This document shows positions 6,124 to 24,552 of a stretch of DNA of 40,852 nucleotides, one piece after another. The notes under the pieces were generated by a model, which searched no databases, was not told where the DNA came from, and saw only the letters and a list, made by a program, of their open reading frames with translations. The translations under genes and the position numbers were made by a program. The DNA is from a virus. The DNA lies in IMG/VR virus record IMGVR_UViG_3300006793_005160, positions 1-40,852 of that record, one strand, 5' to 3'. Numbering within the stretch: position 1 is the stretch's first letter; every line of letters begins with the position of its first letter.

Positions 6124-7437
6124 TTAGATCTTCTCGCCTGCCTTGAAGCCTCTAAATCTGAGAAACCTCGGAAACCTAAGCGAGTAAGTACCATCTTGAT
6201 TTTGTGTAACAGCATCTGCACGTACCTCTACAATTTGCCCAGGGATAGTATCTTTACTAGCCCAAAACTCATCCCTATTAATATCAGTAAAACCGCTACC
6301 GACATTAACATTAATTTGCTTTCCGTCATCAAGTCCTTCACAAATGAATGCACCAAGTTTACCAACGTTTCGTCCTGTTCCTTCTTCGACATCTTTAACC
6401 TCCAGTGATACTTCAATGAAAGGTTTCATCTTCAACCATGAATGTGATCTCTTACATTGATAAACAGCATCAACATCTTTGATCATGATACCTTCATAAC
6501 CTGCTTCAACTGCTTTTTTATTATAGTCTTTGAACATTGTATCTCCAACCATAGTACCTAGTTCTACTTCTTCTTGTGGTACTAAATCACAAAAACATTG
6601 TTCAAATATCTTTTCAAAGGTTTTAAGCATATTACTTCTACGTCTTTGTCCTTGTATGCTTTCACCTTTCTTAAATTCTACTAACGGAATAATGTCAAAC
6701 ACTGCAAGTCTTGCATCTTGTGCTTTCACATCACTCTTTCGATGTACTTGTTTCATTAAGTCTTGGAAACTATTAGAAACAACTTCACCATCAATTACAT
6801 ATGAACGACCAATCTCTTCCATAAAGCCATGCAATGCTTCTGTGATGTGTGCAAAGTTTTCTAATACTTTACCGTTACGTGTGTATTGTGTAACTGACTT
6901 TGCTTCGTAGTCTACAATAGTAACACAACGTACACCATCTAACTTAGGCTCAAGTAGTTTCTTACCAACTAACTTTTTCTCATGATTGGCACTGTCATGT
7001 GCTAACATACACTCGAACACAGGAATTTTATATTGTGGAAACTTCTTAGCGACTTTGTTTACAGTCTTTTCACTTACACCACAACGCAGGTCTTTAATAA
7101 GAATACGTCTATAAAACTTATTCCATTGTTCAGCAGTTGCTACTTCACTTGCAAGTTTGATTGCATCTTGTGCGGCATTACCTGTAAGTTTACGTTTATA
7201 TAGTGCATCAGCAAGTTCTAAGAACTTATCCCATGCTAGTCCTTGTCCGTTCCACTCAGGATCTACTTCTGGAACTTGCTTCACACCAAATGTGTAAAGT
7301 TTATCAAGTGCCATACGGCAACCAGCAAAGAACTCATCTAGTCCTTCTTCCATTGCTTCTAATATTACTTGCTCTTTTGCTAGACGTGAATTGTCTGCTT
7401 CAAGTTTGTCTATAATTACTTCAGGTTGTGTTCTCAT
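6124..7437 (-). CDS. ATP-dependent DNA ligase (T4 gp30-like)
   Basis: 437 residues; seals nicks during phage replication and recombination. Motif I is EPKLDGVR with the adenylated Lys at 165; downstream are VIDGEVV (motif III), GYEGIMIKD (motif IV) and WLKMKP (motif V). An N-terminal helical DNA-binding domain (1-140) and a C-terminal OB fold (about 340-437) complete the T4-type layout. The C terminus (RFPRFLRFRG) is typical of ATP ligases. It has a near-perfect sigma70-type promoter at 7471-7499 and GAGAGG upstream of its ATG, so it is probably expressed early. An intact gene. Confidence 0.93.
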   Translation of the reverse strand: MRTQPEVIIDKLEADNSRLAKEQVILEAMEEGLDEFFAGCRMALDKLYTFGVKQVPEVDPEWNGQGLAWDKFLELADALYKRKLTGNAAQDAIKLASEVATAEQWNKFYRRILIKDLRCGVSEKTVNKVAKKFPQYKIPVFECMLAHDSANHEKKLVGKKLLEPKLDGVRCVTIVDYEAKSVTQYTRNGKVLENFAHITEALHGFMEEIGRSYVIDGEVVSNSFQDLMKQVHRKSDVKAQDARLAVFDIIPLVEFKKGESIQGQRRRSNMLKTFEKIFEQCFCDLVPQEEVELGTMVGDTMFKDYNKKAVEAGYEGIMIKDVDAVYQCKRSHSWLKMKPFIEVSLEVKDVEEGTGRNVGKLGAFICEGLDDGKQINVNVGSGFTDINRDEFWASKDTIPGQIVEVRADAVTQNQDGTYSLRFPRFLRFRGFKAGEKI

Positions 7438-10643: not shown

Positions 10644-11023
10644 AGATAGTACCACAAGGACAAAGGCCAACTGCTTGGGGAATGGAACTCAATTGGGCTT
10701 CTAATGAATCCTACACAGGAAAACTATTAGTATTTGAAAAGCCTCACAAGAAAACTGCTATGATGATTCATAAGAGCAGACGTAAGAGTTGGTTTGTTAA
10801 TGCAGGCAAGTTTAAGATTACATTTATTGATATTAAAACAGGCATGGCAAGAGAACAAGTTATCCAAGAAGGTAGCACAATTGACATTGCTGAAATGACT
10901 CCACATCAATTAGAATCACTAGACCATAATTCAATTATATTTGAAGCAGGAACTCCTGACTATGAAGAAGATCAGTTTAAGATTAATCCTGGTGACGAGC
11001 AAACACAGCCTTCAGAGCAATAA
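10640..11023 (+). CDS. Cupin-domain protein (mannose-6-P isomerase-like)
   Basis: 127 residues forming one beta-barrel cupin. [12 protein letters not shown], then [21 protein letters not shown], then [13 protein letters not shown] match the start of the cupin barrel of type-II mannose-6-phosphate isomerase / GDP-mannose pyrophosphorylase proteins. Metal-binding His are only partly retained. Together with the epimerase, it suggests sugar-nucleotide modification. ATGA-coupled to clpP; its last 41 bases overlap the end of convergent hemA. Confidence 0.7.
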
Positions 11024-12188
11024 CTAAATCCTCAATCATTTTATCATCATGATACGGAGTAGGTGCAAACCTTAAACGTTCTGTACCTTCTGCTACTGTA
11101 GGATAGTTAATTGGCTGTACATAGATATCATATTCATCAATAAGCATATCGCTCATTGACTTACACTTCTTAGCATCGCCTACAAGTACAGGAACAATAT
11201 GCGTAGTTGCACATTCCATAACCTGTATGTCGTTTGCTGTTAATCTTTCTTTTAATTTTTTTGCTTGTGCTTGATGTTGATCTCGAACTTCGTTGTGATC
11301 TTTTAAGTATTTTATAGCAGCCATTGCTCCAGCACATGCAACAGGACTCATACTAGTCGTGAAGATAAAACCAGAAGCCACTGAACGGATAGCATCAATA
11401 ACATCAGCATCGGCAGCAATGTAACCACCTTGAACTCCAAAGGCCTTTCCAAGTGTGCCATTGATTATATCAATTCGGTTTTGAAGTCCTAGTTTCTCCG
11501 TCCAGCCGCCTCCGTGTTCGCCATAAAGGCCAACAGCGTGTACTTCGTCAATGTATGTTATTGCATTATACTTGTCTGCAATATTACATATTTCTTCCAT
11601 TGGCGAAATGTCTCCGTCCATAGAGTAAACACTTTCAAATACTATACAAGGAACTTGATTGGCAAGTACAGCGTTAGCACATAGTTCTTCTAGTTGATCC
11701 ATGTCGTTGTGATGCCACACTTGCTTTTCTGCTTTACTATGTCTAATACCTTGTATCAATGAAGCGTGATTCTTACTATCGCTTAAGAATACAATGTTAG
11801 GGAATATTCTTTTTAATGAAATAAGTGTCCATTCGTTTGCAACGTATGCAGATGTAAACAGCAAGGACTTTGCTTTGTTGTGTAACGTACTAATCTCATG
11901 TTCCAACGCAACGTGGTAATGGCTTGTGCCACCTATGTTACGTGTACCTCCCGAGCCTGATCCTGTTTGGTCTAGGGCAGTATGCATAGCGTCTATGACA
12001 ACCTTGTGCTGTCCCATGCCTAAGTAATCGTTACTACACCAATTGGTAATGTTTTTAATATTATAAGGTCCGTACCAGATAGCTCTAGGGAACTCGCCTC
12101 TTTCCCTAAGTATGTCGTTGAAAACCCTATAGTTGCCGCTATCTTTTAGGCTTTTTAGTAGTTTGTTTATTGGTTCTTTGTTTATCAT
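10983..12188 (-). CDS. hemA: 5-aminolevulinate synthase (C4 Shemin pathway)
   Basis: 401 residues, full length for alphaproteobacterial ALAS, which condenses glycine and succinyl-CoA to 5-aminolevulinate, the first committed step of heme synthesis. It is a PLP enzyme: [12 protein letters not shown] start, [10 protein letters not shown] (50-59), [13 protein letters not shown] glycine loop, SVYSMDGD (187-193), [12 protein letters not shown] (PLP Asp at 214), and the PLP lysine at 248 in GTLGKAFG. The C terminus keeps [10 protein letters not shown] and GTERLR. The start has no clear Shine-Dalgarno and overlaps a possible 55-residue ORF, so it may be coupled to it. It is separate from the hemF-C-E-B operon but on the same strand. 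Confidence 0.95.
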
Positions 12189-12306
12189 GATAGAATAGTG
12201 TTCCCATTGAGTGATGGCATTGATACCAACCGTCTTTTCTTAGCTCGTCCATTAGGCTATTATATTCATTAGCCCAAGTTTTAAAGAATTTAATTATGTT
12301 GTACAT
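12139..12306 (-). CDS. Possible 55-residue ORF leading the hemA unit
   Basis: Starts [17 protein letters not shown] and contains [16 protein letters not shown]; the tail is Lys/Thr-rich. It overlaps the start of hemA by 50 bases. The evidence for a real gene is position: the motif TTAAATAC stands 4 bases before its ATG, exactly as before hemF, and no other start explains how hemA is translated without a Shine-Dalgarno. Residue content is protein-like, but no family is recognised. Confidence 0.45.
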
Positions 12307-12310
12307 ACAT

Positions 12311-12318
12311 GTATTTAA
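12311..12318 (-). promoter_or_regulatory. Late-type motif TTAAATAC before the hemA unit
   Basis: TTAAATAC on the minus strand ends 4 bases before the ATG at 12306. It stands back to back with a plus-strand ATAAATAA (12320-12327), giving a compact divergent promoter pair. Confidence 0.45.
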
Positions 12319-12319
12319 C

Positions 12320-12327
12320 ATAAATAA
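12320..12327 (+). promoter_or_regulatory. T4-late-type promoter, ATAAATAA
   Basis: ATAAATAA lies 19 bases before the ATG at 12347, with GGAGAG in between. Confidence 0.5.
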
Positions 12328-12346
12328 CAATATAGGAGAGCGAACA

Positions 12347-12610
12347 ATGGCAGCGAACGGTATATCAACTTTATCACTTAAAAAAACTAGACAAGATACT
12401 AAATTAGCCAAAGCAGAAGCAAAACGTCAAGGCAAATCAGTTGCAGATGATGGAACTATTTCTGGTAGTGTTGATACTAATGCTGTATCATATAGAGCTC
12501 TTAACACATTAAATCTTGGCAGATTGCCTACAAGATACAATGCTTCAGACAATAATGGAGCACTCACAGACAACGCTGGTGTTCCAGTTGCCAGTCGTCC
12601 TTGGTCATAA
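12347..12610 (+). CDS. Conserved small phage protein, 87 aa
   Basis: Start at 12347 (MAANGISTLSLKKTRQDTKLA) is set by GGAGAG upstream; the ORF is open further back. The AANGIST start, the K-x-x-RQ-x-x-KL-x-x-A pattern and the C-terminal RPWS resemble a small protein I recall from marine T4-like phages. It has its own late-type promoter, so a virion or assembly role is plausible, but this is inference. Soluble and polar. Confidence 0.8.
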   Translation: MAANGISTLSLKKTRQDTKLAKAEAKRQGKSVADDGTISGSVDTNAVSYRALNTLNLGRLPTRYNASDNNGALTDNAGVPVASRPWS

Positions 12611-12625
12611 ACCTATCCTTTTTTA

Positions 12626-12633
12626 ATAAATAC
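12626..12633 (+). promoter_or_regulatory. T4-late-type promoter, ATAAATAC
   Basis: ATAAATAC lies 29 bases before the thermonuclease ATG, with AGGAGCG between. Confidence 0.55.
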
Positions 12634-12662
12634 GTATATAACTAATTAGGAGCGAAAACGTT

Positions 12663-13091
12663 ATGTACGAGTACAGAGCCACTGTCGTAAAGATAGTAGA
12701 TGGCGATACTGTTGATGTAGATATTGATCTAGGTTTTGGTATTGTCTTAAAAGATGAAAGGGTACGTGTTATGGGTATTGATACTCCAGAAAGCAGAACA
12801 CGAGACAAGGTAGAAAAGAAGTTTGGACTTGCTGCAAAGGCAAGGCTTAAAGAACTATTAGGTAAAACAACAGTTCTAAAAACCCAAATTAATAAAAACG
12901 GCGAAGACATGAAAGGCAAGTTCGGTCGTATCTTGGGTGACTTTTCTACAGAGGACGGACGCATGATAACTGATATCATGGTTGAAGAAGGACATGCTGT
13001 AGCATACTTTGGTGGAAGCAAAGAGGAAATCCAACTGAAGCATATGGCTAACAGAGAAAAACTACTCCGCGAAGGAGTCGTTGTTTTATAG
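12663..13091 (+). CDS. Thermonuclease (SNase-like nuclease)
   Basis: 142 residues of the staphylococcal nuclease fold. VVKIVDGDTVDVDIDLGFG (8-26), RVRVMGIDTPESR (33-45) and KGKFGRILGDF (about 84-94) hold the metal-binding Asp and catalytic Arg/Glu positions, and a TDIMVEEGHAVAY segment closes the OB fold. It hydrolyses DNA or RNA with calcium. No signal peptide, so it acts in the cytoplasm or in the virion. SD AGGAGCG and a late-type promoter precede it. Confidence 0.9.
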   Translation: MYEYRATVVKIVDGDTVDVDIDLGFGIVLKDERVRVMGIDTPESRTRDKVEKKFGLAAKARLKELLGKTTVLKTQINKNGEDMKGKFGRILGDFSTEDGRMITDIMVEEGHAVAYFGGSKEEIQLKHMANREKLLREGVVVL

Positions 13092-13101
13092 GGAGAAGTA
13101 A

Positions 13102-13527
13102 ATGTTTAGATTAATTGCATTACTAACACTAGTATTCGGATTATGGATAGTACCAGCGTCTGCTACGGGAGGAGTTATTGGAGCTCTTAATACTACAACT
13201 ACTGACGAACCTGCACCGACACCAACACCAGGCCTTCCAAATATTCCACCACAAGGACAATATCAAACTTTGCCTATAATGATCGATTGTGGTCGTTATT
13301 CAGATGTAATAAGTATCATTCTTAAAGCAGGCGAGCAACCTTTCGCAGCAGGTAAGATATTATTTAAAATTCCAGATGGTAGAGCAATAGAAGCAGTATT
13401 AGAAATGTGGGCCAATCCGGAAACAAGAACTTTTACGAGCGTTCTTAAAGTAACTGATGAATATGCCTGTTTAGTATTTCCAGGAAAAGAATTTATGGGT
13501 GCACCAAAACAGGGATTAACATTATAA
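13102..13527 (+). CDS. Exported protein with signal peptide, 141 aa
   Basis: Residues 1-21 form a signal peptide (hydrophobic IALLTLVFGLWIV, then PASA before a Thr/Gly start), with likely cleavage after ASA near residue 21. A Thr/Pro linker (about 31-48) leads to a beta-rich domain with two cysteines (CGRYS and YACLVF) that could form a disulfide in the periplasm. Family not recognised. GGGAGAAG upstream; it follows the thermonuclease by 10 bases. Confidence 0.8.
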   Translation: MFRLIALLTLVFGLWIVPASATGGVIGALNTTTTDEPAPTPTPGLPNIPPQGQYQTLPIMIDCGRYSDVISIILKAGEQPFAAGKILFKIPDGRAIEAVLEMWANPETRTFTSVLKVTDEYACLVFPGKEFMGAPKQGLTL

Positions 13528-13530
13528 ATA
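13523..13530 (+). promoter_or_regulatory. T4-late-type promoter, TATAAATA (perfect)
   Basis: A perfect TATAAATA overlaps the stop of the exported-protein gene and lies 17 bases before the lipase ATG. Confidence 0.6.
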
Positions 13531-13547
13531 AAAAATAGGAGCGAAAT

Positions 13548-14351
13548 ATGTTATCAGAAAAATTAAAGAAAGGAATAGCAGAACTTACTTTCAATCAAAG
13601 AAGTTTATTATTTGCTGAACTATCAGCAATTGCATACTTAGATACAAAAGATGCAACAACACAAGCAAAAGAGCTAGGCTTTACAACAGTAGAGTTTTAT
13701 GATATCGACGGTGCCCAGGCTTATCGCTTTATGAATAAAAACGATATGGTTATTGCATGTCGTGGAACACAGCCAACAGAATACAACGATATTAAAGCAG
13801 ACTTAAACGCTCTTCCTATTATTTCTGAAACAGTTTCTAGAGTACACAGAGGATTCAAAACAGAAGTAGACGAACTTTGGCCACATGTGAAAGAGGATAT
13901 GGACCGTAAAGTTAATCTAAAGAAACAACATTGGTTCTGTGGACATTCATTAGGTGCTGCAATGGCAACTATAATGGCTTCAAGATGTAAGCATAGTCCA
14001 GAACTAAGTGATCCTGTTGAACTTTATACATATGGTTCACCTAGAGTTGGATGGTCAGCATACTGCAACAGTTTAAATGTTGAACATCACAGATTTGTAA
14101 ACAATAACGACATTGTTACTACAGTACCACTATCAATAATGGGTTTCAAGCATCATGGCACTTGCCATTACTTTAATTCATGGGGTAACCTACGTAAACT
14201 TTCGTTCTGGCAAAGAACAAAAGATAAGTTCCGTGGAATGTGGAGAGGACTAAAAGCATTTAAAATAGATAACTTCTCGGATCATTCTATGGCTGAGTAC
14301 ATTGCACATTGTGATAAATTAGTAAAAGGAATGGAAACACCGCAAGTTTAA
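13548..14351 (+). CDS. Class 3 lipase family alpha/beta hydrolase
   Basis: 267 residues with the lipase-3 signature: IACRGTQP (69-76), oxyanion region RVHRGF (98-103), nucleophile Ser134 in the GHSLGAA elbow, YTYGSPRVG (160-168), Asp188 (NNNDIVTTVP) and His246 (SDHSMAEYI). The triad is complete, so an acyl-ester hydrolase is likely, acting on lipids or glycerophospholipids. No signal peptide is seen, so it would act inside the cell or in the virion, perhaps in envelope disruption. SD TAGGAGCG; perfect late-type promoter. Confidence 0.88.
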   Translation: MLSEKLKKGIAELTFNQRSLLFAELSAIAYLDTKDATTQAKELGFTTVEFYDIDGAQAYRFMNKNDMVIACRGTQPTEYNDIKADLNALPIISETVSRVHRGFKTEVDELWPHVKEDMDRKVNLKKQHWFCGHSLGAAMATIMASRCKHSPELSDPVELYTYGSPRVGWSAYCNSLNVEHHRFVNNNDIVTTVPLSIMGFKHHGTCHYFNSWGNLRKLSFWQRTKDKFRGMWRGLKAFKIDNFSDHSMAEYIAHCDKLVKGMETPQV

Positions 14352-14364
14352 CAAAAGGAGTTGG

Positions 14365-15015
14365 ATGTCGTTCTTAGTCCACAACTTACCGCCGCAAGAA
14401 GTATTTGTTAAAAAGGAATACTTATATGATCTACAAAAAGGTCATGGGGAACTCACGCCTGGGGTATGGATTTCAATTAGAAGTATAATGGGCAAAGCAC
14501 TATACTTTGAAACACTTCTAACTGAGTACGGTGCATTGTACGATAAACTTCCTATATCAGCATTTGTTTGGAAAGAAGATTACGATAAAGATAATCAACT
14601 TCCTTTAGACACATTACAGATATGGGATTGCTTTGATTATGATATCACACTAATTAAAAAGCCTATGCTATCTAACTGCGAGTTTTTTGGCAAAGATAAG
14701 AAAATGCACAAAGGCGATTACATGTTTACACTTGATACATGTCATGCACAACACTCAACACTTGATATTAATTTTAGCGAACACGATCCTGAACATAAAA
14801 CATTTAACGTTATTAAGTTAGACAACGGACAGTTTGCAGCACAACCAAACAACAGAGTAATATTTACAGATCAAAGTCTAGTTCATCCAGAACGCAAAAT
14901 GCCAGACTTCAAAGTGTGTACACAAAACTACACAGTTGAGAACACACCTAAGTGGTCAGTAGGACATACTGACGAATGGCAATACAAAACGAAAGACGAA
15001 GAAAGTGGAAGATGA
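14365..15015 (+). CDS. Conserved T4-like phage protein, 216 aa
   Basis: NLPPQEVFVKKEYLYDLQKGHGE at the start, LPISAFVWK, QIWDCFDYD, then FTLDTCHAQHSTLD and KLDNGQFAAQPNNR resemble a conserved protein of unknown function that I recall from marine T4-like phages. Soluble, beta-rich. AAAGGAG precedes the ATG. Its 3' end overlaps the next small gene by 11 bases. Confidence 0.8.
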   Translation: MSFLVHNLPPQEVFVKKEYLYDLQKGHGELTPGVWISIRSIMGKALYFETLLTEYGALYDKLPISAFVWKEDYDKDNQLPLDTLQIWDCFDYDITLIKKPMLSNCEFFGKDKKMHKGDYMFTLDTCHAQHSTLDINFSEHDPEHKTFNVIKLDNGQFAAQPNNRVIFTDQSLVHPERKMPDFKVCTQNYTVENTPKWSVGHTDEWQYKTKDEESGR

Positions 15016-15187
15016 AGAGAAAGAAGCCTATAGGCTTTTTTGGTTAGTCAAAGGACACCTAAATACATCACACGAAACTATAATGTCATCATATGATGGT
15101 TACTTTAAGAGACTATGGGGTAACTGTGAACGTGCTGAATACGGTATGGAAGGCTTCGAAGAAGCATATAAAGAGAAAAGGGGTTGA
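15005..15187 (+). CDS. Small conserved protein, 60 aa
   Basis: GTG start at 15005 overlapping the previous gene by 11 bases; reads MEDEEKEAYRLFWLVKGHL and is helical throughout, acidic at the start. Its last codons overlap the -35 box of the next promoter. Family not recognised; supported by coupling and protein-like composition. Confidence 0.6.
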   Translation: MEDEEKEAYRLFWLVKGHLNTSHETIMSSYDGYFKRLWGNCERAEYGMEGFEEAYKEKRG

Positions 15188-15212
15188 CTTCTTTTTAAAT
15201 TGGTGCTATAAT
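15184..15212 (+). promoter_or_regulatory. Sigma70-type promoter for the HAD gene
   Basis: TTGACT (15184-15189), 17-base spacer, TATAAT (15207-15212). Followed by AAGGAG and the ATG at 15238. Confidence 0.8.
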
Positions 15213-15237
15213 ATAGGTACAATAGAAAAGGAGTTAT

Positions 15238-15834
15238 ATGAAATTGCGAGATAATAAAGTAATCTTAGTAGATGCAGACGGTGTCTTACTCGATTGGGAA
15301 TGGGCATTTAATGTATGGATGGGCGAACAAGGTTTCGAAAGAATTGAAGGGTCGCAGTTCATTTATGATATAGGTGAGCGATACGGTATTCCAACAACAC
15401 AATCAAAAAAACTTGTTAACATATTTAATAACAGTGCATGGATTGGATTTCTTCCAGGACTGAGAGATGCACAGTTTTATGTTAAGAAACTACACGAAGA
15501 ATATGGATTCACATTCCATTTAATTACTTCACTTTCCTTAGATAAGAATGCACAGAAACTAAGAACAATGAACATTGATAAATTGTTTGGAACAACAGCA
15601 TTTACAAAATATGTATACTTAGGAACTGGTGCAGACAAAGACGATGCATTAGAAAAATACAAAGGTACTGGACTGTATTGGGTTGAAGATAAACCTAAGA
15701 ACTGTGAAGCAGGATTAGCACAAGGGCTTAAACCTTTATTAATCGAACACGGTCATAACATGGATTATAGGCATGAAGGTATTACTACAGTTAAGAACTG
15801 GAGACACATACACGATTTAGTTACTCATCCATAA
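15238..15834 (+). CDS. HAD-superfamily phosphatase-like protein
   Basis: 198 residues. Motif I is VDADGVLLDW with Asp12 and Asp14 (nucleophile and acid/base); LITSLS (motif II, about 99-104) and a VEDKPKNC block (about 144-151, motif IV) follow. The cap region and size are like 5'(3')-deoxyribonucleotidases, so a nucleotide phosphatase is plausible, but substrate is not certain. A strong early-type promoter and AAGGAG precede it. Confidence 0.8.
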   Translation: MKLRDNKVILVDADGVLLDWEWAFNVWMGEQGFERIEGSQFIYDIGERYGIPTTQSKKLVNIFNNSAWIGFLPGLRDAQFYVKKLHEEYGFTFHLITSLSLDKNAQKLRTMNIDKLFGTTAFTKYVYLGTGADKDDALEKYKGTGLYWVEDKPKNCEAGLAQGLKPLLIEHGHNMDYRHEGITTVKNWRHIHDLVTHP

Positions 15835-15887
15835 GAACGTAGTAATATAACAATATTCTTATAAGCCCCCACAAAAACATCTAGTTC

Positions 15888-15895
15888 TATAAATA
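15888..15895 (+). promoter_or_regulatory. T4-late-type promoter, TATAAATA
   Basis: Perfect TATAAATA about 90 bases before the AlkB-like start; it is followed by the palindromic promoter at 15904-15935, so this unit may have both early and late expression. Confidence 0.5.
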
Positions 15896-15903
15896 ATATT
15901 AAG

Positions 15904-15935
15904 CACTTGACATTTAGTGTGTCAAGTGTTACTAT
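15904..15935 (+). promoter_or_regulatory. Promoter with -35 box inside a palindrome
   Basis: CACTTGACA (15904-15912) and TGTCAAGTG (15920-15928) form a perfect 9-base inverted repeat with a 7-base loop. The left arm holds TTGACA (15907-15912); 17 bases on is TACTAT (15930-15935). A dimeric repressor or activator could bind here; as RNA it would be a hairpin without a U-tract, so it is not an ordinary terminator. Confidence 0.6.
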
Positions 15936-15984
15936 GTTAATACATTGTGTGATTAATAACCGCCGATAAGGCAGGAGGCATACA

Positions 15985-16089
15985 ATGAATAAACTTCTCG
16001 TAAACATAAGGTACTTCATTGCGCCATTGTTGATACTTGTTACACTCGCTGGAGTGTTAGTAGGTGGAGCGGGGCATGGACAGGTGTAG
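15985..16089 (+). CDS. N-terminal part of AlkB-like oxygenase (frame 1)
   Basis: Strong start: AGGAGG 6 bases before the ATG. Encodes MNKLLVNIRYFIAPLLILVT, then LAGVLVGGAG, a typical first membrane helix of an AlkB-type monooxygenase, then runs into TAG at 16087. The natural continuation (AWTGVGLLGVGIILD) lies in the -1 frame immediately downstream of GGGG at 16071-16074. One extra G would give a single 354-residue protein. Sequencing error, recoding, or true loss are all possible. Confidence 0.7.
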   Translation: MNKLLVNIRYFIAPLLILVTLAGVLVGGAGHGQV

Positions 16090-16094
16090 GCTTA

Positions 16095-17048
16095 TTGGGA
16101 GTAGGCATTATACTTGACACTCTTATCAATGTTCAAACTCGTGGAGCAGTTGATGAGAACGGAGAGACCTTGGGAATCCCCTGGTTACAGAATACAGTAA
16201 TGTATTTGATGTTACCGGTCTTTGTTGCACTTCAGTTGGCACTAGCATATCAGATCTATAATGGTATGGCAGGTGCAGAACTTTTAGGTGCTACACTTTC
16301 AACAGGTATATTTGCAGGCATAGGCATAATCTATGGGCATGAACTATCTCACACCAAAGGCATTGCATTTGTAATAAGTCGTTGGATGATGGGACTATCA
16401 GGTTCAGCACATTTCTGTTATGCTCATGTGTACAATCATCACTTGGAATTAGCAAGTGAAGACGATCCTGCAACAGCACCTAGAGGACGTGATATCTATT
16501 CACACTATATCAAATCACACTTAGGACAATCTAAGTTCTTGTTTGAAATGGAGAGAGGTAGATTGAAACGTTTAGGCAAACCTTTCTTGTCCGTAAGTAA
16601 TAGATGGATAAGAGGTTACATGATGAGTGTACCTACACTTGCATTGTTCTTCTTTGCAGGTGGTTGGTTAGGTGTCGCATGTATCGGACTTGTTTGGTTA
16701 ATATCAAACTTCGAACTTGAAGCACTTAACTATCTAGAACACTATGGTTTGATTCGTGTTAAAAGCGAACCAATAGACTATAGACATTCCTGGGATAACT
16801 CAACATTATTCACAAGCTGGTTCTTCATTGAGATTGGTCGCCAGGCTGATCATCATGACAGAGGTGAGACACACTTCTGGGAACTAGATGAAGTAGGTGC
16901 ACCTAACACTGGTGTAGGTTACTTTACACTCTTTGCGTTAGCATTGATACCTCCTGTGTTTAATCGCTTTATGAAAAAGCATTTAGACAATTGGGATAAA
17001 AACTTTGCAACCGAAGCAGAAAGAGAAATAGCAAAAACATTTGCATAA
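16095..17048 (+). CDS. AlkB-like integral membrane non-heme diiron oxygenase (body)
   Basis: This frame lacks its own good start, and the true N terminus is the fragment at 15985. In the joined numbering it has HELSH (119-123), HVYNHH (148-153), SEDDPATAP, the AlkB hallmark NYLEHYGL (249-256), a RHSWDNS block, and QADHH (287-291), with several membrane helices. The family hydroxylates alkanes or other hydrophobic chains with O2 using a His-bound diiron site. The third His box is HSDHH in AlkB and QADHH here, so one metal ligand is changed. Substrate unknown. A terminator follows at 17057. Confidence 0.75.
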   Translation: MGVGIILDTLINVQTRGAVDENGETLGIPWLQNTVMYLMLPVFVALQLALAYQIYNGMAGAELLGATLSTGIFAGIGIIYGHELSHTKGIAFVISRWMMGLSGSAHFCYAHVYNHHLELASEDDPATAPRGRDIYSHYIKSHLGQSKFLFEMERGRLKRLGKPFLSVSNRWIRGYMMSVPTLALFFFAGGWLGVACIGLVWLISNFELEALNYLEHYGLIRVKSEPIDYRHSWDNSTLFTSWFFIEIGRQADHHDRGETHFWELDEVGAPNTGVGYFTLFALALIPPVFNRFMKKHLDNWDKNFATEAEREIAKTFA

Positions 17049-17056
17049 TCACTTGG

Positions 17057-17079
17057 GGGGTCGGAAACGGCCCCTTTTT
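17057..17079 (+). terminator. Rho-independent terminator after the AlkB-like gene
   Basis: GGGGTC-GGAAAC-GGCCCC stem-loop (one G-U pair) followed by five T. Confidence 0.8.
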
Positions 17080-17110
17080 GCCTTGACATCGTACACATCT
17101 GATGTTACTC

Positions 17111-17118
17111 TATAAATA
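17111..17118 (+). promoter_or_regulatory. T4-late-type promoter, TATAAATA
   Basis: Perfect TATAAATA 31 bases before the ATG of the PiT-like gene. A TTGACA at 17083-17088 lies upstream but its best -10 partner is poor, so the late-type box is preferred. Confidence 0.6.
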
Positions 17119-17149
17119 AAGTCGAACAATGCTTGGAAAGAGATAATAA

Positions 17150-18109
17150 ATGGACGCACTCACCCTATGGATGGCTGTAGGTTTCCTATTCGCAGGTTAC
17201 GCAGTTATTGCAAATGATTCAGTACAAACGTTAGGCACTTGGATCGCATCAAACAACGACAAATTCAATTGGAAAGTTATGTGGGGAGCGGCTTCGGCTG
17301 TTCTACTGTATACGCTCTGGTATGGTTGGTACACTAACGGTGGCGACATCAGTTACGGACGACTAAACAAAATACCGTTCCAAGAGATACAATGGTACCA
17401 TGCAATGGCACCAGGACTACTATTAATACTTACAAGGATAGGAGTACCAGTTAGTACTTCTTTTTTAGTATTAAGTGCATTCGCTAGTACATTTGTGCTA
17501 GAGAAGATGCTTGTTAAAAGCATGATGGGGTATGCGGTGGCAGCAGTCGCGGCATATGTTATTTGGATAGGAGTAACTAAAATCCTAAACGAAGCAAACC
17601 CAGTCAAAGAAGAACATAAACGATGGTGGAGAATAGGACAGTGGGTAACCACAGGCTTCTTATGGTTCACTTGGCTAAGCCATGACATGGCAAACATTGC
17701 CGTGTTCCTACCTAGACAGATACCTTGGGATCTAATGATAATGATTTCACTTGTGTTTATTGTAGGCTTAGGCTTTATGTTTAAAGAGGGTGGAGGTAAG
17801 ATACAAAATATTATTATTGAAAAGCACAACACAAGATATGTTCGTAGTGCTACAATAATTGATGCAGTATACTTTCTTATACTTTTGTTCTTCAAAGAAC
17901 TAAACGATATACCAATGTCTACAACGTGGGTGTTTGTAGGATTGTTATGTGGACGTGAACTTGCTATGGCTACAATGACTGGCAAGGAAAAGTTCAAAAC
18001 AGTGTTTCCGTTGATTACCAAAGACTTCATTAAAATGATGATAGGACTAGGTGCATCAGTAGGTGTAGTGTTAATGATACACTATGTTATTGTACCAAAC
18101 GGATACTAG
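17150..18109 (+). CDS. PiT-like inorganic-ion permease, multispan membrane protein
   Basis: 319 residues with about 9-10 hydrophobic segments. Two half-repeats carry signatures like those of PiT/Pho-4 phosphate permeases: ANDSVQTLGT (21-30) and GVPVSTSFLVL (98-108) in the first half, and SHDMANIAVFLPR (177-189) in the second. PiT proteins use GANDVAN-x-FGT and G-(L/V)-PVSTT(H). It probably moves phosphate or another anion, or a metal-phosphate complex, across the host inner membrane. The loop after residue 145 is basic. Own late-type promoter and terminator, so it is a stand-alone unit. GGAAAGAGA lies before the ATG. Confidence 0.7.
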   Translation: MDALTLWMAVGFLFAGYAVIANDSVQTLGTWIASNNDKFNWKVMWGAASAVLLYTLWYGWYTNGGDISYGRLNKIPFQEIQWYHAMAPGLLLILTRIGVPVSTSFLVLSAFASTFVLEKMLVKSMMGYAVAAVAAYVIWIGVTKILNEANPVKEEHKRWWRIGQWVTTGFLWFTWLSHDMANIAVFLPRQIPWDLMIMISLVFIVGLGFMFKEGGGKIQNIIIEKHNTRYVRSATIIDAVYFLILLFFKELNDIPMSTTWVFVGLLCGRELAMATMTGKEKFKTVFPLITKDFIKMMIGLGASVGVVLMIHYVIVPNGY

Positions 18110-18118
18110 AATGGATAG

Positions 18119-18145
18119 AGCAGTGTTCGACAGCACTGCTTTTTT
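18119..18145 (+). terminator. Rho-independent terminator after the PiT-like gene
   Basis: AGCAGTG / CACTGCT stem of 7 pairs with an 8-base loop, followed by six T. Confidence 0.85.
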
Positions 18146-18146
18146 C

Positions 18147-18175
18147 TTGACTTAAAGAAGATTTTGTAATATTAT
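18147..18175 (+). promoter_or_regulatory. Sigma70-type promoter for PRPP synthetase
   Basis: TTGACT (18147-18152), 17-base spacer, TATTAT (18170-18175). It starts directly after the upstream terminator. Confidence 0.75.
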
Positions 18176-18208
18176 ATAAGTACAATATCAAACAAGGAAG
18201 GACTACAT

Positions 18209-19168
18209 TTGAAGATGAAAATCATTACAGGAAATGCTAATCCTAAATTAGCACAAGAGATCGCAGAACACTGTTTTAGTGATCTTGTTCCGGCTAAAGT
18301 TTCCACATTTGCAGATGGAGAATCTAGCGTAGAATTTTTAGAAAACGTTAGAGGCGAAGATGTTTTTATTATCCAAAGCACAAGTCAACCAGTTAATGAC
18401 AGTCTTATGGAACTAATGGTAATGATTGATGCGGCACGTAGATCAAGTGCTAGTCGTATTACAGCAGTTATTCCTTATTACGGGTACGCAAGACAAGATC
18501 GTAAGAGTGCAAGTCGTACACCTATCACAGCAAAACTAGTTGCTAATCTATTAACAACGTCTGGTGCAGATAGAATCTTAACTATGGATCTACATGCAGG
18601 ACAGATACAAGGCTTCTTTGATATTCCTGTTGATGACTTAACAAGTAGAATTGCATTTGCTAAAGACATTAAACGTACAATAGGTATTATTGACGACCCT
18701 GAAGTTAATCAACAAGGTACAGTGTTTGTATCTCCAGATGCAGGTGGAGCAGTAAGAGCTCGTAAGTTTGCTGACATGTTTACAGGTGACATTGCTATTG
18801 TAGATAAAATGCGTCCTGAAGCAGGCAAGTCAGAAGTAATGAACTTGATTGGTGATGTTAAAGGACGACATGCTATCCTAGTAGATGATATTATTGATAG
18901 TGGCGGAACACTTTGTAATGCAGCCAAAGCAATTATGGATGCTGGTGCATTGTCAGTTCGTGCTTATATTACACATGGAGTATTGTCAGGTGATGCTTGT
19001 TTAAAGATTGAAAAAAGTGTGCTTGATGAATTAGTTGTTACAGATACTATTGCTAATCGTTGTCCTAAGAACTGTAAGAAAACACGTCAAGTAAGTGTAG
19101 CACCTTTGTTCGGTGAAGCAATGCGTAGAATAACTAACGAAGAATCAGTTAGCAGCCTGTTTATATAA
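18209..19168 (+). CDS. prs: Ribose-phosphate pyrophosphokinase (PRPP synthetase)
   Basis: 319 residues, full length. Makes PRPP from ribose 5-phosphate and ATP for nucleotide and NAD synthesis. Landmarks: FADGESSVEF, ATP loop RQDRKSASRTPITAKL, the metal-binding DLHAGQIQGFFDIPVD, the flexible-loop DKMRPEAGKSE, and the PRPP-binding VDDIIDSGGTL; the end ESVSSLF is typical. The TTG at 18209 has GAAGGA six bases upstream and is preferred; the ATG at 18215 would shorten it by two residues. It complements the ribonucleotide reductase by supplying nucleotide precursors. Its end overlaps convergent hemB by 24 bases. Confidence 0.95.
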   Translation: MKMKIITGNANPKLAQEIAEHCFSDLVPAKVSTFADGESSVEFLENVRGEDVFIIQSTSQPVNDSLMELMVMIDAARRSSASRITAVIPYYGYARQDRKSASRTPITAKLVANLLTTSGADRILTMDLHAGQIQGFFDIPVDDLTSRIAFAKDIKRTIGIIDDPEVNQQGTVFVSPDAGGAVRARKFADMFTGDIAIVDKMRPEAGKSEVMNLIGDVKGRHAILVDDIIDSGGTLCNAAKAIMDAGALSVRAYITHGVLSGDACLKIEKSVLDELVVTDTIANRCPKNCKKTRQVSVAPLFGEAMRRITNEESVSSLFI

Positions 19169-19996
19169 TTCCCTAGCACCGTAAGTAATCATAAAGTCAG
19201 CACCAGCACGTTTAAAAACATCATGTGTTTCTTTTAACATCTCTGGAACTAGCCAAGTATTTCTTTGTAAGCCAATGTATTCGCCGCTTGTTTGATATAC
19301 TCCAACAGGTGCTTGATACTTAGTTGCTTCTTTAATAGGCATAATAAGATCAATACTAGTCATTCCAGGCTTAACCATTAAACTAGTAGCACCGTCATTA
19401 AAATACTTTACACTTCTAGCAATAGCAAGTTCTCTATCATTTACATCTAATTGATAACTTCTATGTATACCTTTTTCAACTCCAATAGTTTGTCTAAAGC
19501 CATCATAGAATTGTGATCTAAACTTAGTTGAATAGCTCATTACATCTACTTTAATATGTTCTTTAATATTCTTTACAGTATTATCTTGACAGTCACTAGG
19601 TGCTAATACATCTGCTCCAGCTTCGTATACAACACTTGCTTGTTCGAATAGTTGTTCGTCTGTCTTTGCTGCATCAGTAGGGTAACAACAGTGTCCATCT
19701 AGCGTAGTAGAACACAAGCATATATCAACATGCAGGTTTACTTTATCTCCGTATGCTGCTTTGATTTCGCTAACAACACGTTTATTCAAATCCCAATCTG
19801 GCATTTCAGATCTTTCAGGCATAACAAATACTAAAATATCTTTAACCCCAAGAACAATATCTCTACCGATAGTATCTATTGCGCCCTTAACTGACCACGG
19901 GTGATTGTCGTTACCAAGGACAGACTGTTTAGATGCAAGTACCCAATCATCTCCGTTACCTTGATTACTAATAAAGTATGGTTGTATTAGTTTCAT
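19145..19996 (-). CDS. hemB: Porphobilinogen synthase (ALA dehydratase)
   Basis: Condenses two 5-aminolevulinate molecules to porphobilinogen. 283 residues, about 40-50 shorter than usual; the missing part is the N-terminal arm. Both Schiff-base lysines are there: Lys158 (YSTKFRSQFY) and Lys209 (VKPGMTSIDLI). The zinc triad C93-x-C95-x7-C103 (DICLCSTTLDGHC) is present, so it is the Zn type. VYQTSGEY and TYGAREL also match. The lost arm normally helps octamer assembly, so a changed oligomer is possible. Last gene of hemF-peptide-hemC-hemE-hemB; its start overlaps the hemE stop as ATGA. Confidence 0.93.
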   Translation of the reverse strand: MKLIQPYFISNQGNGDDWVLASKQSVLGNDNHPWSVKGAIDTIGRDIVLGVKDILVFVMPERSEMPDWDLNKRVVSEIKAAYGDKVNLHVDICLCSTTLDGHCCYPTDAAKTDEQLFEQASVVYEAGADVLAPSDCQDNTVKNIKEHIKVDVMSYSTKFRSQFYDGFRQTIGVEKGIHRSYQLDVNDRELAIARSVKYFNDGATSLMVKPGMTSIDLIMPIKEATKYQAPVGVYQTSGEYIGLQRNTWLVPEMLKETHDVFKRAGADFMITYGARELYKQAAN

Positions 19997-20970
19997 GAAT
20001 ATCTTTCCCTAACCATATCCACAAATAATTTTACGTTGGCTTCCGGAGTTTCTTTATGTATTCCGTGTCCTAGTCCGCATACCCAACCAGTTCTATCAAC
20101 ATGCTCCATGCTATCAAGCCATTCAGTAATTTCTTTTTCTAGATAAGGCTTAGGAGTCATCATTAATTTTTCATCGAAGTTACCTTGTATAAAGCCGTCT
20201 TGATATTTTTTAAATGTTCGTTGCATATCAACTGTATGGTCAACGCCTATACCAGACCATCCCATTCTGTACAGTGTAGGCAAACACTTATGATTTAGAT
20301 GTTGCGTATAATATCCTGTATCAGTTTGTATTAGTGGCTGTAATATATTAACGTAATTTGTTTTGAAGAATGCTTCGCTCATATTACCTACACCACTATC
20401 AAGTATCATAACTTTCTCTGCACCTGCTTCTAGTTGTAGATGTATGTTGCGTGTTAACACAGGAACAATAACTTCTTCCATATACGCTGCCTTCCATTTT
20501 AAATCCATGTTAGGCTTCTTACCTGTAGCGTAGTTTAGTAATGTCCACGGTCCACCAACAAAGCCTATTAGACTTTTTGATTTATGCAGTTTCTCTCTAG
20601 TTGCAGCAACCGCAACCTTTTGAAACTCCATGTGTTCTACTGCACGTGAAATATCTTTATGTTCTCTATAGTTTTCCTCATTGATATAATAATCAAACTG
20701 TGGACCTGGTGCAAACTTTAAAGGCACACCTAATCCTTCAATAGGAAATAGTATGTCGCTAAACAGTATCGCAATATCAAAGTCAAATTGATCAATTGGA
20801 AGCATTGCTACATCAGCAGCAACTCTTGGAAGTTTACACATTTGCTCAAATGTAAAACGCTCTTTCATCTCCATATAGGGTTGCTGATATCTTCCAGCCT
20901 GTCTCATCATCCAAATCGGAGGACAAGACTGTTCTACCCTATTGCAGGCATTCGTAAATTTTTCATTCAT
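19993..20970 (-). CDS. hemE: Uroporphyrinogen decarboxylase
   Basis: 325 residues, close to the family's usual 340-355. Removes four acetate carboxyl groups from uroporphyrinogen III to give coproporphyrinogen III. Landmarks: PPIWMMRQAGRYQ (17-29) with Arg23 and Arg27, LFSDILFP (69-75) with the catalytic Asp72, FVGGPWTLLNY, and GLGHGIHKETPEANV near the end. ATGA overlaps both neighbours (19993-19996 and 20967-20970). An intact gene. Confidence 0.95.
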   Translation of the reverse strand: MNEKFTNACNRVEQSCPPIWMMRQAGRYQQPYMEMKERFTFEQMCKLPRVAADVAMLPIDQFDFDIAILFSDILFPIEGLGVPLKFAPGPQFDYYINEENYREHKDISRAVEHMEFQKVAVAATREKLHKSKSLIGFVGGPWTLLNYATGKKPNMDLKWKAAYMEEVIVPVLTRNIHLQLEAGAEKVMILDSGVGNMSEAFFKTNYVNILQPLIQTDTGYYTQHLNHKCLPTLYRMGWSGIGVDHTVDMQRTFKKYQDGFIQGNFDEKLMMTPKPYLEKEITEWLDSMEHVDRTGWVCGLGHGIHKETPEANVKLFVDMVRERYS

Positions 20971-21788
20971 ATAAGTTTTGTTCCTAGTTGCTCACCTAAT
21001 TCGATATAGTTTTCTTTCTTACCGATTACTTCACTATACTTATCAGTTTCGAAGTTGTGAGCTTCCATCATTAAATAGTCGCCAACAATACTAGATATGC
21101 AACCAACAGCAGTATGGCAGTCACCATTTATAACTTCTAGCATCTTGCGTTCAGCCATTGCACATTTATATGTGTCTGGGTCTGAAGATGTAGATAATAA
21201 ATTACTTGCAGAACTTTTCTTTCTTGTTTGTAATGCAATAACTCCTTGCCCAACAGCAGGAAACATTTCTCTAATTGTAAATGTTTTTGTTATCTTATCT
21301 TGTAACCCTAATGCTTCAAGACCTGCAACAGCAAGTACAATAGCATCATACTGTCCGCTTTCTACTTTAGAAATACGTGTATCAATGTTTCCTCTAATAG
21401 GAACAATTTCTGCTTGTGAATATAATTTTTTTAGTTGTGCAATTCTACGAGGACTACCTGTTCCTATTTTTGCCCCTGGCTTATCAGGATTACCAATTAC
21501 ACAATCTCTAGGATCGTTACGTTTTAATACTGCCGATATCTCAAGTACATCATCTGAATCTCTTGTTAAGTCTTTTAAACTGTGAACAGCAATATCAATT
21601 TCTTTGTCTATTAACTTTTGTTCGATGGCTTTACAGAATACTCCTTTGCCACCCATTTCTAATATAGGAGTGTCTGGATTTATTTCCGCTTCAGTTGTTA
21701 CTGTAACTATCTCAGCATTGTTAATTAGAGCTGCTGCCCTACTTGCATACTCCAATGCTAGTTTACTTCCTCTGACACCTATCTTCAT
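20967..21788 (-). CDS. hemC: Hydroxymethylbilane synthase (porphobilinogen deaminase)
   Basis: 273 residues, a little shorter than the usual 300-315 because the C-terminal domain is trimmed. Polymerises four porphobilinogens. Landmarks: VRGSKLAL (5-12), GGKGVFCKAIE (46-56), AVHSLKD with Asp73 (catalytic), GTGSPRR, IRGNIDTR (131-138), FPAVGQG (176-182), and the dipyrromethane-cofactor Cys224 in GDCHTAVG. AAGGAAGG lies before the ATG, which also overlaps the stop of the 25-residue peptide as ATGA. HemD, which normally closes the ring into the III isomer, is not in the window. Confidence 0.95.
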   Translation of the reverse strand: MKIGVRGSKLALEYASRAAALINNAEIVTVTTEAEINPDTPILEMGGKGVFCKAIEQKLIDKEIDIAVHSLKDLTRDSDDVLEISAVLKRNDPRDCVIGNPDKPGAKIGTGSPRRIAQLKKLYSQAEIVPIRGNIDTRISKVESGQYDAIVLAVAGLEALGLQDKITKTFTIREMFPAVGQGVIALQTRKKSSASNLLSTSSDPDTYKCAMAERKMLEVINGDCHTAVGCISSIVGDYLMMEAHNFETDKYSEVIGKKENYIELGEQLGTKLI

Positions 21789-21862
21789 TTTCTAACCTTC
21801 CTTATGACCCAAGCAATGAATGCTAAGATAGCAGCAGTTAATGCACCTATCCCAATGTTCAC
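21785..21862 (-). CDS. 25-residue membrane peptide inside the heme operon
   Basis: GTG start that overlaps the hemF stop as GTGA, and TGA stop that overlaps the hemC start as ATGA, so it is exactly bounded on both sides. Encodes a single hydrophobic span (NIGIGALTAAILAFIAWVI) ending in Arg/Lys (RKVRK), an N-out or membrane-anchored peptide. It is too short for a catalytic domain. It could recruit or regulate the heme enzymes at the membrane. Not recognised; unusual in heme operons as far as I know. Confidence 0.7.
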   Translation of the reverse strand: MNIGIGALTAAILAFIAWVIRKVRK

Positions 21863-22677
21863 GGCCAACTCACATCTGGCGGTAAGCTCATTAATATTGC
21901 TTCCATGTTGCCGCCTGTTTTAAAACCAAACTTAGTACCACGATCATATAATAAGTTAAACTCTACATATCGCCCACGTTTGATCTTTTGTATATCTTTA
22001 TGTTCGTCTGTGTAGTTGTTGTTCATATAGTTAATTGCAGTTGTTCTCACAACATCTGCAAACTTTATACCCAAACGTTCTACAAATTTAAAGTCCATGT
22101 CTTTAGGATCGTAATATTCAAAGAACAATCCTCCAATGCCTCTTGTTTCTTTTCTATGTGGCAAATAAAAGTATTCATCACAGGCTTTACTAAACTTGTC
22201 GTACCAAGTTGCATCATACAAATCACAGACCTTTTTAAGCTCTCTATGATACCCAATCTTGAATGTTTCATTATCCAAGCAGGGTGTTAGATCCATACCA
22301 CCACCAAACCATTCTTTCTCGTGTGTTTTAAGATATCTTGTATTAAAGTGCATTGCAGGTACCCAAGGATTTGTAGGGTGTAATACTACACTTATACCTG
22401 TGGCATAATACTGTCTATTATCATCAGTTGTACCAGGAATCTCTTTTGCAAATCTAGGATCAAACTCTCCTGTTACACAAGAATAATTTACTGTACCTTT
22501 TTCAAATACATTTCCACGTATAACTTTGTGTGTTTGTGTCCAGCCTTCTCTGCTAGAATGTCCACCTTCTTCCATTTTAATAGGATCGTTGGGTGTGAAT
22601 CTTGCTTCTACTTCATTTATGTTATCTTCTATGATTTGTGCAAGTTGTGCAAACCATTCAGTATACATTGTATTCAT
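21859..22677 (-). CDS. hemF: Aerobic coproporphyrinogen-III oxidase
   Basis: 272 residues from the ATG at 22677 (MNTMYTEWFAQLAQII), against about 300 in E. coli. The frame stays open to 22740, but that stretch holds a hairpin and matches no family sequence. O2-dependent decarboxylation of coproporphyrinogen III to protoporphyrinogen IX. Landmarks: GTVNYSCVTGEF, FATGIS-type YATGISVVLHPTNPWVP, HFNTRYL, EWFGGGMDLTP, DEYFYLPHRKETRGIGG, and RGRYVEFNLLYDRGTKFGF with KTGGNMEAILMSLPP. First gene of the operon; TTAAATAC is 4 bases before this ATG and there is no Shine-Dalgarno. Its stop overlaps the peptide start. Confidence 0.93.
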   Translation of the reverse strand: MNTMYTEWFAQLAQIIEDNINEVEARFTPNDPIKMEEGGHSSREGWTQTHKVIRGNVFEKGTVNYSCVTGEFDPRFAKEIPGTTDDNRQYYATGISVVLHPTNPWVPAMHFNTRYLKTHEKEWFGGGMDLTPCLDNETFKIGYHRELKKVCDLYDATWYDKFSKACDEYFYLPHRKETRGIGGLFFEYYDPKDMDFKFVERLGIKFADVVRTTAINYMNNNYTDEHKDIQKIKRGRYVEFNLLYDRGTKFGFKTGGNMEAILMSLPPDVSWP

Positions 22678-22831: not shown

Positions 22832-23101
22832 CTATTTTGAAGTCCCTGTTACGAATTTGTAAAACTCCTCGGCTGTTTCTAAAACTTCTTTAGAACCTGG
22901 AATTTCTGGCATATCGACTTTGTTAAGTACTTGTCCAGTTTTTTCGTCACGCTTTGCAGATACTTCCCAACCCATCCACTTGTTTGAATATTCAAACTCT
23001 GTAAATGCTTTGGCCATGTCTAGCACTTCTGTGCGAATTTCGTAACCGTTTTTATTGAATTGCACTTTAGGTAGTGCATCTTTGATTTTGTCTAATGACA
23101 T
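22832..23101 (-). CDS. Conserved small phage protein, 89 aa
   Basis: MSLDKIKDALPKVQFNKNGYE, EVLDMAKAF, KWMGWEVSAKRDEKTGQVL and IPGSKEVLETAEEFYKFV resemble a small protein I recall from marine T4-like phages. Soluble, helical. AAGGAG precedes the ATG, and a sigma70-type promoter lies at 23144-23172. Single-gene unit ended by the hairpin at 22704-22729. Function unknown. Confidence 0.8.
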   Translation of the reverse strand: MSLDKIKDALPKVQFNKNGYEIRTEVLDMAKAFTEFEYSNKWMGWEVSAKRDEKTGQVLNKVDMPEIPGSKEVLETAEEFYKFVTGTSK

Positions 23102-23143: not shown

Positions 23144-23172
23144 AATGTAACACTATTATTTACCTTTGTCAA
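23144..23172 (-). promoter_or_regulatory. Sigma70-type promoter, minus strand
   Basis: TTGACA (23167-23172), 17-base spacer, TACATT (23144-23149) on the minus strand, serving the gene at 22832-23101. Confidence 0.7.
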
Positions 23173-24102: not shown

Positions 24103-24292
24103 CACTTCTCTCCGTCATTAGTTTTTTAGCCTGATCGTAGTATCCCATACGAGCAAGTTCATTAGCAGCTCTAGCACGACCTGCTGTTTCGCCAAAGGCA
24201 ATTGTACCAATCCAAAATGCAAACAAAGCATTTCTGATAATGGTACAAAGTTTACATGTAAAGTTCCATGTAGTTTGTGTTATCGCAGTCAT
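24077..24292 (-). CDS. Small membrane protein with GRARAANELARMG motif
   Basis: Start at 24292 shares a base with the upstream stop (TAATG). 71 residues: N-terminal helix segment (about 10-35, WNFTCKLCTIIRNALFAFWIG), then GRARAANELARMGYYDQAKKLM, which resembles the short helical unit that accompanies DUF1127-type proteins in alphaproteobacteria. Overlaps the next gene by 26 bases. Family assignment is tentative. Confidence 0.6.
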   Translation of the reverse strand: MTAITQTTWNFTCKLCTIIRNALFAFWIGTIAFGETAGRARAANELARMGYYDQAKKLMTERSDVTAKKTV

Positions 24293-24552
24293 TATACCCA
24301 TCCTCTTAAATTCTTATTTGTAGTTGCAGTCATTCTCTTATCTCGGAATGTACCTCTAGCAATACTTTCGATGTCGCTACGGTAAATCCCTAAATCTTTT
24401 AGTTCATGATCTGTAAGGTTGCGTAATTCTCTACGAGTTCTTGCAATCATAGCCTTGCGGGCTCTGTTGCGTCTCCATTGTCTAACTAAATCCACAAGTC
24501 CTTCTAAAGCATCTTGTAGCAAGTGTGATACTGTCATAATTGCTTGTGTCAT
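24292..24552 (-). CDS. DUF1127 family protein
   Basis: 86 residues. Residues about 38-70 match DUF1127 (YjiS-like): RTRRELRNLTDHELKDLGIYRSDIE follows the family pattern L-x-x-L-(S/T)-D-x-E-L-x-D-L-G-I-x-R-S-D-I, written here with the hallmark DLG-x-x-R-SDI. In alphaproteobacteria short DUF1127 proteins are small Arg-rich regulators, some linked to RNA turnover and phosphate or stress responses. A phage copy could reprogram host RNA metabolism. Start shares a base with the upstream stop (TAATG). Confidence 0.8.
   Translation of the reverse strand: MTQAIMTVSHLLQDALEGLVDLVRQWRRNRARKAMIARTRRELRNLTDHELKDLGIYRSDIESIARGTFRDKRMTATTNKNLRGWV

Follow-up and report, generated by a model that had tools for sequence, protein, structure and literature searches.

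IMG/VR virus record IMGVR_UViG_3300006793_005160 (positions 1 to 40,852; this whole stretch of 40,852 bases is called the window below) carries five open reading frames (ORFs), all on the minus strand, that belong to protein families of the tetrapyrrole, or heme, biosynthesis pathway: hemA, hemB, hemE, hemC and hemF (Table 1). A preliminary description made from the letters had recognised five hem enzymes in a phage window, and this holds: the frames are open and each predicted protein exceeds the gathering score of its Pfam family (PF00155, PF00490, PF01208, PF01379 and PF01218); none of the five has a match in PHROGs. Four of the genes form an operon transcribed in the order 89-amino-acid (aa) ORF, hemF, hemC, hemE, hemB, in which the start of hemE overlaps the end of hemC, and the start of hemB the end of hemE, by four bases each; the end of hemB is in turn overlapped over 24 bases by prs, which runs in the opposite direction. 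The fifth gene, hemA, lies outside this operon, and about 7 kb of other genes separate it from hemB. Two points of the preliminary description need correcting: hemA does not belong to the block, and the proposed route from glycine to protoporphyrinogen IX has a gap at HemD, for which no gene was found.

Table 1. Tetrapyrrole-pathway genes of the window and the features that delimit their operon (positions in the window)
Feature	Position	Strand	Remarks
hemA, 5-aminolevulinate synthase (ALAS)	10983..12188	-	401 aa
prs (ribose-phosphate diphosphokinase)	18209..19168	+	convergent neighbour at the downstream limit of the operon
hemB, ALAD/porphobilinogen synthase family	19145..19996	-	283 aa, without N-terminal arm
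hemE, uroporphyrinogen decarboxylase family	19993..20970	-	325 aa
hemC, hydroxymethylbilane synthase	20967..21788	-	273 aa
hemF, oxygen-dependent coproporphyrinogen oxidase family	21859..22677	-	272 aa counted from ATG
89-aa ORF, first gene of the operon	22832..23101	-	precedes hemF in 11/11 HemC contigs
promoter-like site TTGACA-17-TACATT ahead of the operon	23144..23172	-	conserved among relatives

ALAS and HemC score above the cut-offs of their NCBIfam equivalog models (578.7 bits against 338.55 for TIGR01821 and 263.4 bits against 164 for TIGR00212, respectively). For the other three, the Pfam scores stand far above the family cut-offs (170.9 bits against 24.6 for HemB, 215.3 against 23.9 for HemE and 270 against 31.8 for HemF), and the NCBIfam models of methyltransferases related to HemE score far lower, with 31.2 bits at best. 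Searches of the PDB returned only porphobilinogen synthases for HemB (24/24), uroporphyrinogen decarboxylases for HemE (20/20), hydroxymethylbilane synthases for HemC (17/17) and coproporphyrinogen oxidases for HemF (9/9); for ALAS, the best 5 of 57 matches are ALAS and the remainder mostly related acyltransferases. The catalytic residues named in the preliminary description, whose loss on alignment would have counted against it, are all retained. Lys248 of the window ALAS aligns with the pyridoxal phosphate (PLP) lysine Lys248 of R. capsulatus and is present in all 81 viral ALAS rows; the Schiff-base lysines Lys158 and Lys209 of HemB align with Lys195 and Lys247 of E. coli, and its zinc ligands Cys93, Cys95 and Cys103 with Cys120, Cys122 and Cys130; the cofactor-binding Cys224 and the catalytic Asp73 of HemC are found in all eight phage rows. 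HemE, which is 28-33% identical to its bacterial counterparts (8 of 10 bacterial genomes gave matches), keeps Asp72, and six of the seven positions that we take to be its key sites (Arg37, Arg41, Arg50, Asp86, Tyr164, Ser219 and His339 in human numbering) are retained in 6/6 phage rows. The conserved blocks seen in HemF are likewise confirmed: 66 of the 82 invariant or nearly invariant columns of 30 bacteria are identical in all three phage rows compared, at least one of which deviates at the other 16; identity reaches 52%, over part of the length, among 349 genomes.

Judged by its gene content, the window is DNA of a T4-like marine phage of the pelagimyophage type, as it contains a T4-like NrdA and virion genes. 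Among the 20 best records for NrdA, those of cyanophages and pelagiphages share 68-73% identity with it (72.6% for cyanophage S-BM3, 72.1% for pelagiphage Mosig), and the phage families found in PHROGs comprise an exonuclease (phrog_298), a baseplate hub/tail lysozyme (phrog_1259), a tail spike (phrog_2234), a virion protein (phrog_14154) and a ligase (phrog_114). Scans of viral_contigs yielded 11 contigs for HemC, 10 for HemB, 11 for HemF and 13 for HemE; for ALAS, the best 80 of 449 stretches were used. The order 89-aa ORF, hemF, hemC, hemE, hemB, prs is common to all 11 HemC contigs; two of them, G001 and G002, agree with the window at 99.6-100% identity in each protein that they have in common with it. 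All five hem genes stand on one contig in the window, in G005 (25.7 kb) and in G008 (107 kb, the longest record with the hem set), the other HemC contigs stopping before they reach hemA. A second and more distant clade (G017-G019; NrdA 88% and HemC 60% identical where compared) has hemF-hemC-hemE together with hemA, again among phage genes. HemC was found in 16 of 62 records, namely in 12/12 of the window and HemC scan set, by construction, and in 4 of the 50 others, made up of 3 HemE loci and 47 ALAS loci. The 47 were drawn from the 80 ALAS loci, of which 2 more lie within G005 and G008 and the other 31 fell outside the search for HemC. Deposited phage records also include relatives of HemC (10), HemB (9), HemE (12), HemF (2) and ALAS (19), all less than 60% identical; to judge by names and lengths, many of these may be pieces of host DNA or enzymes of a different kind. 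An assembly chimera of phage and bacterial DNA, which the preliminary description had named among the ways in which it could fail, is rejected, since independent records (the 11 HemC contigs and the three more distant ones) span the junctions with the same order among phage genes. The base composition (G+C) is even.

The hem genes are maintained under selection. Pairwise ratios of nonsynonymous to synonymous changes (dN/dS; Nei-Gojobori method, own script) between the window and G005 and G008 amount to 0.06-0.19 for the five hem genes, the top value being that of HemB, and to 0.05-0.09 for nrdA, nrdB, clpP, prs and galE (nrdA and nrdB against G008 only); on this comparison of sequences, purifying selection acts on all five about as it does on genes that belong to the phage itself. 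Ahead of the operon, the two hexamers TTGACA and TACATT and their spacing are kept in 8/8 aligned records, the second hexamer differing by a single change in G017 and G019, in which the first ORF of the operon is only 46% identical to that of the window. Because the window holds no excess of such promoter-like sites overall (41 found against 53.7 expected), the case for this particular site rests on its conservation. The T4-type late promoter TATAAATA shows no excess either, with 4 matches in the window against 4.25 expected.

Trees were built for ALAS and HemC, a comparison with alphaproteobacterial hosts having been suggested at the outset. The phage HemC rows form one clade (support 100/100) inside a group that also holds 31 SAR11 rows (96/97), and the nearest bacterial HemC found is that of Pelagibacteraceae, at 43-46% identity. 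In the ALAS tree (the window and 80 viral loci, 11 SAR11 rows and only one other bacterium), the 81 viral rows stand on one side of a branch with a Shimodaira-Hasegawa-like approximate likelihood ratio (SH-aLRT) support of 99 and the 11 SAR11 rows on another. As the phage HemC stem is long (1.09 changes per column) and the identities are low, no sampled host is a recent source of the hem genes. Phage origin, the absence of a chimera, family membership and long retention are the parts of the preliminary reading that these sequences support; the reading as a whole is partly supported.

Two readings of sequence peculiarities, an inactive HemC and a phage adaptation of ALAS, were considered and set aside. 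Arg176 (E. coli numbering) is an important residue of the HemC cleft and is replaced by Ala or Thr in 8/8 phage rows. It is kept in 27/27 rows outside SAR11, but its loss is not diagnostic of an inactive enzyme because 20 of the 31 SAR11 rows have lost it too. Similarly, the ALAS residues associated with feedback by heme, His342 and Cys400 according to PMC11480375, are missing from the phage proteins (His342 from 81/81 viral rows, Cys400 from 9/9 phage rows); since SAR11 ALAS lacks both as well (11/11 rows and 11/11 tails, respectively), the loss of this feedback is not specific to phages and does not qualify as a phage adaptation.

We lean towards regarding the five genes as an auxiliary metabolic gene set with which a marine T4-like phage of the pelagimyophage type would raise or take over the flow to heme. 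From the hem sequences we infer that the phage probably steers or boosts the tetrapyrrole pathway of the infected cell. Ring closure would be left to the HemD of the host, after which phage HemE would form coproporphyrinogen III and phage HemF protoporphyrinogen IX, and heme would be finished by host protoporphyrinogen oxidase (PPO) and ferrochelatase. The phage would benefit from a larger heme flow under its own control at a time when host gene expression drops, mainly for respiration; in relatives that also encode HemO and PcyX, this flow could additionally serve bilin or iron.

Several observations weigh against this reading. Three of the five proteins fall under the cut-offs of their NCBIfam equivalog models: HemB with 163.6 bits against 297 for NF006762, HemE with 214.9 against 302.95 for TIGR01464, and HemF with 295.8, about 1 bit under the 297 of NF003727, in a scan that used a longer, 293-aa frame. 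HemB is also some 28 residues shorter at its N-terminus than E. coli HemB and has lost the N-terminal arm, its profile matches starting at profile position 26-30 (NCBIfam, Pfam); in ALAD, this arm has a role in oligomers. A HemB structure predicted by AlphaFold from 4 sequences, with a mean predicted local distance difference test (pLDDT) score of 53.4, was not used; by its sequence, HemB is a member of the ALAD family and a putative porphobilinogen synthase. In HemE, the seventh site, Arg50, is Lys in 6/6 phage rows and Arg in 8/8 bacterial rows. The dN/dS of HemC rises to 0.28-0.29 against G017 and G019, where synonymous changes number about one per site. The remaining enzymes, for which the preliminary description had looked to the host or to the rest of the genome, were not found in related records, all of them fragments: neither HemD nor ferrochelatase (HemH) in 12 records, no amino-oxidase (HemY-type) PPO in 16, and no HemJ in 13, although just 2 of 14 control genomes gave a HemJ match above the cut-off of the model. 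Going by these records, the phage route would have gaps at HemD, PPO and ferrochelatase that the host must fill. Finally, hemB was not found in the fragments of the G017-G019 clade and three contigs match HemE and no other window protein, so that the hem set is not indispensable. In G012, a phage HemE at 5576-6547 has no other hem genes with it and is flanked by homologues of KDO-8-phosphate synthase and KdsB.

A first alternative is that heme is an intermediate and that the hem set feeds phage HemO and PcyX, with phycoerythrobilin or freed iron as the end. The longest relatives encode heme oxygenase (HemO) and a bilin reductase, which the preliminary description had omitted: HemO occurs in 11 of the 62 records, among them G008 and G019, in both of which the bilin reductase adjoins it. 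The reductase of G008 is of the PcyX type, scoring 264.9 bits with PcyX (5owg) and 59.1 with the best PcyA, and shares 51.1% identity with its counterpart in pelagiphage Mosig. Close to the pair in G008 lie CsgG, CsgF and a gene of the IMPDH/GMP reductase family. However, this module is not seen in the window, itself a fragment; 9 of the 11 HemO records lack HemC, which shows the two modules not to be tied; and the route would still need a host ferrochelatase. While relatives that have HemO and PcyX may end at either heme or phycoerythrobilin, we consider it rather unlikely that this accounts for the hem set as such.

A second alternative places the weight on ALAS, which would supply a step missing in a SAR11-type host that has HemB and the following enzymes but no enzyme making 5-aminolevulinate (ALA), the other four proteins raising capacity. 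The family to which a SAR11 single-cell genome belongs was represented by 41 genomes, many of them incomplete by size: HemC was found in 39 and ALAS in 12 of them, and 27 have HemC with no ALAS found. SAR11 genome G436, a single contig of 1,320,649 bases with no N, encodes HemB, HemC, HemE, HemF, HemH and HemJ, but no ALAS was found in it with 11 SAR11 queries, nor GtrR (the nearest match is shikimate dehydrogenase) or HemL (ArgD and AptA come closest). The sequence of HemD diverges fast, so that the failure to find it in G436 with an E. coli query (E 0.53) says little. The loss of Arg176 in phage HemC further matches the SAR11 group without this residue (20/20), which has ALAS in 0 of 19 genomes searched; the group that keeps Arg176 (11/11) has ALAS in 8 of 11. 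Yet SAR11 is only a candidate host. The HemC tree is undecided between the two groups (approximately unbiased test, p-AU 0.479 for joining the Arg176-less group and 0.123 for the other), and the G+C content of the phage, 38%, exceeds that given in PMC7029224 and PMC10308909 for SAR11 (27.6-35.9%) and for four pelagimyophages (about 33%). PMC11480375 moreover states that Pelagibacteraceae use the Shemin route only, a statement with which the SAR11 genomes apparently lacking ALAS disagree; in passages of other papers, Fonsibacter forms ALA from glycine (PMC7527133) and AEGEAN-169 shows heme auxotrophy (PMC10308909). Taken together, we regard the supply of a missing ALAS step as an unlikely main purpose of the set, though it draws attention to genomes of the SAR11 family in which no ALA source is apparent.

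Joining the two alternatives leads to a bolder and more doubtful proposal, for which we see little likelihood: almost the whole route from glycine to phycoerythrobilin (ALAS, HemB, HemC, HemE, HemF, HemO and PcyX) would be opened by the phage in a SAR11-type host that retains the steps from HemB on but lacks its own ALA-making enzyme. If true, infection rather than the cell would decide whether the tetrapyrrole pathway runs. That the genes are inactive or accidental, through a chimera or as host genes in transit without a role, is hardly credible: the equivalog scores and the shortened HemB would fit it, but the chimera is already contradicted by independent contigs, and the shared gene order in all 11 HemC contigs and the three more distant ones, the open frames, the low dN/dS and the even G+C speak against it.

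The reading as an auxiliary gene set that raises heme flow can be set beside known phage systems. Phage-borne Shemin-pathway genes, which the preliminary description mentioned as already reported, are in print: PMC11480375 describes viral ALAS genes (valaS) that aquatic phages carry either singly or together with hemO and pcyA/X, and the complementation of an E. coli mutant by the ALAS of another phage. The window ALAS clusters with other viral ALAS, and G008 adds HemO and PcyX; compared with the phages described there, this lineage adds HemB, HemC, HemE and HemF, and HemB, HemC and HemF are not among the gene names of that main text. For pelagimyophage PMP-MAVG-4, PMC7029224 lists in a single sentence a porphobilinogen deaminase, a GMP reductase and a coproporphyrinogen oxidase, and says nothing more on their function. 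That phage, compared here by description only, resembles the present one in being a T4-like marine phage and in its GMP reductase, to which the IMPDH/GMP reductase-family gene of G008 may be likened; it differs in that ALAS, HemB and HemE are not named there. The HemO-PcyX cassette of Mosig has a bilin reductase resembling that of G008, whereas no match to HemB, HemC, HemE, HemF or ALAS is found in Mosig. On the bacterial side, the HemC of Pelagibacteraceae is the closest found and groups with the phage protein, but in G436 the hem genes are scattered except for hemE, hemH and hemJ, in contrast to the phage operon. A viral AhbD (PMC9301287) and viral 'heme biosynthesis' genes not named individually (PMC13184970) are mentioned in the accessible parts of two further papers.

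In print we thus find phage ALAS, HemO and PcyX, and HemC with HemF in one sentence; no report of a phage HemB, HemE or five-gene set was found in a search outside which most subscription papers, preprints and supplements lay. The phage tetrapyrrole genes that we found in print act mostly at the entry of the pathway (ALAS) or at its exit (HemO, bilin reductases). The retention of five trunk steps suggests that flow through the trunk, beyond the supply of ALA, may limit the infected cell, and makes the notion of a phage running its own cofactor pathway testable.

Other features of the window and its relatives were recorded. The 89-aa ORF at 22832-23101 matches neither a PHROG nor a Pfam family, and an Rfam scan of the window gave no match. 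A DUF1127 protein (PF06568, 40.8 bits) is encoded at 24292-24552 (-); as this family is common in alphaproteobacteria, it is a possible hint at the host. On the plus strand are an AlgH-like (DUF179) protein (3380-3943), a class 3 lipase (13548-14351), a membrane hydroxylase gene (FA_desaturase in Pfam, 15985-17048) and, truncated where the window ends, the first part of a Rieske-type oxygenase (40053-40852), whose homologue in G008 barely exceeds the PF00848 cut-off. The G008 homologue of the hydroxylase matches structures of the alkane 1-monooxygenase AlkB; in the window its frame is broken near the start by a length difference missing from 4/4 other records compared, which points to an assembly error or a private mutation. 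In G008, several ORFs between about 7 and 32 kb look by eye like radical SAM enzymes, one of two tested matching Radical_SAM, and curli genes (CsgG, CsgF and a curlin-repeat protein) lie at 49.5-51.8 kb. By match to G008, CsgG and CsgF are also present in G019, the window ending before that region, and both are reported for pelagimyophages in PMC7029224.

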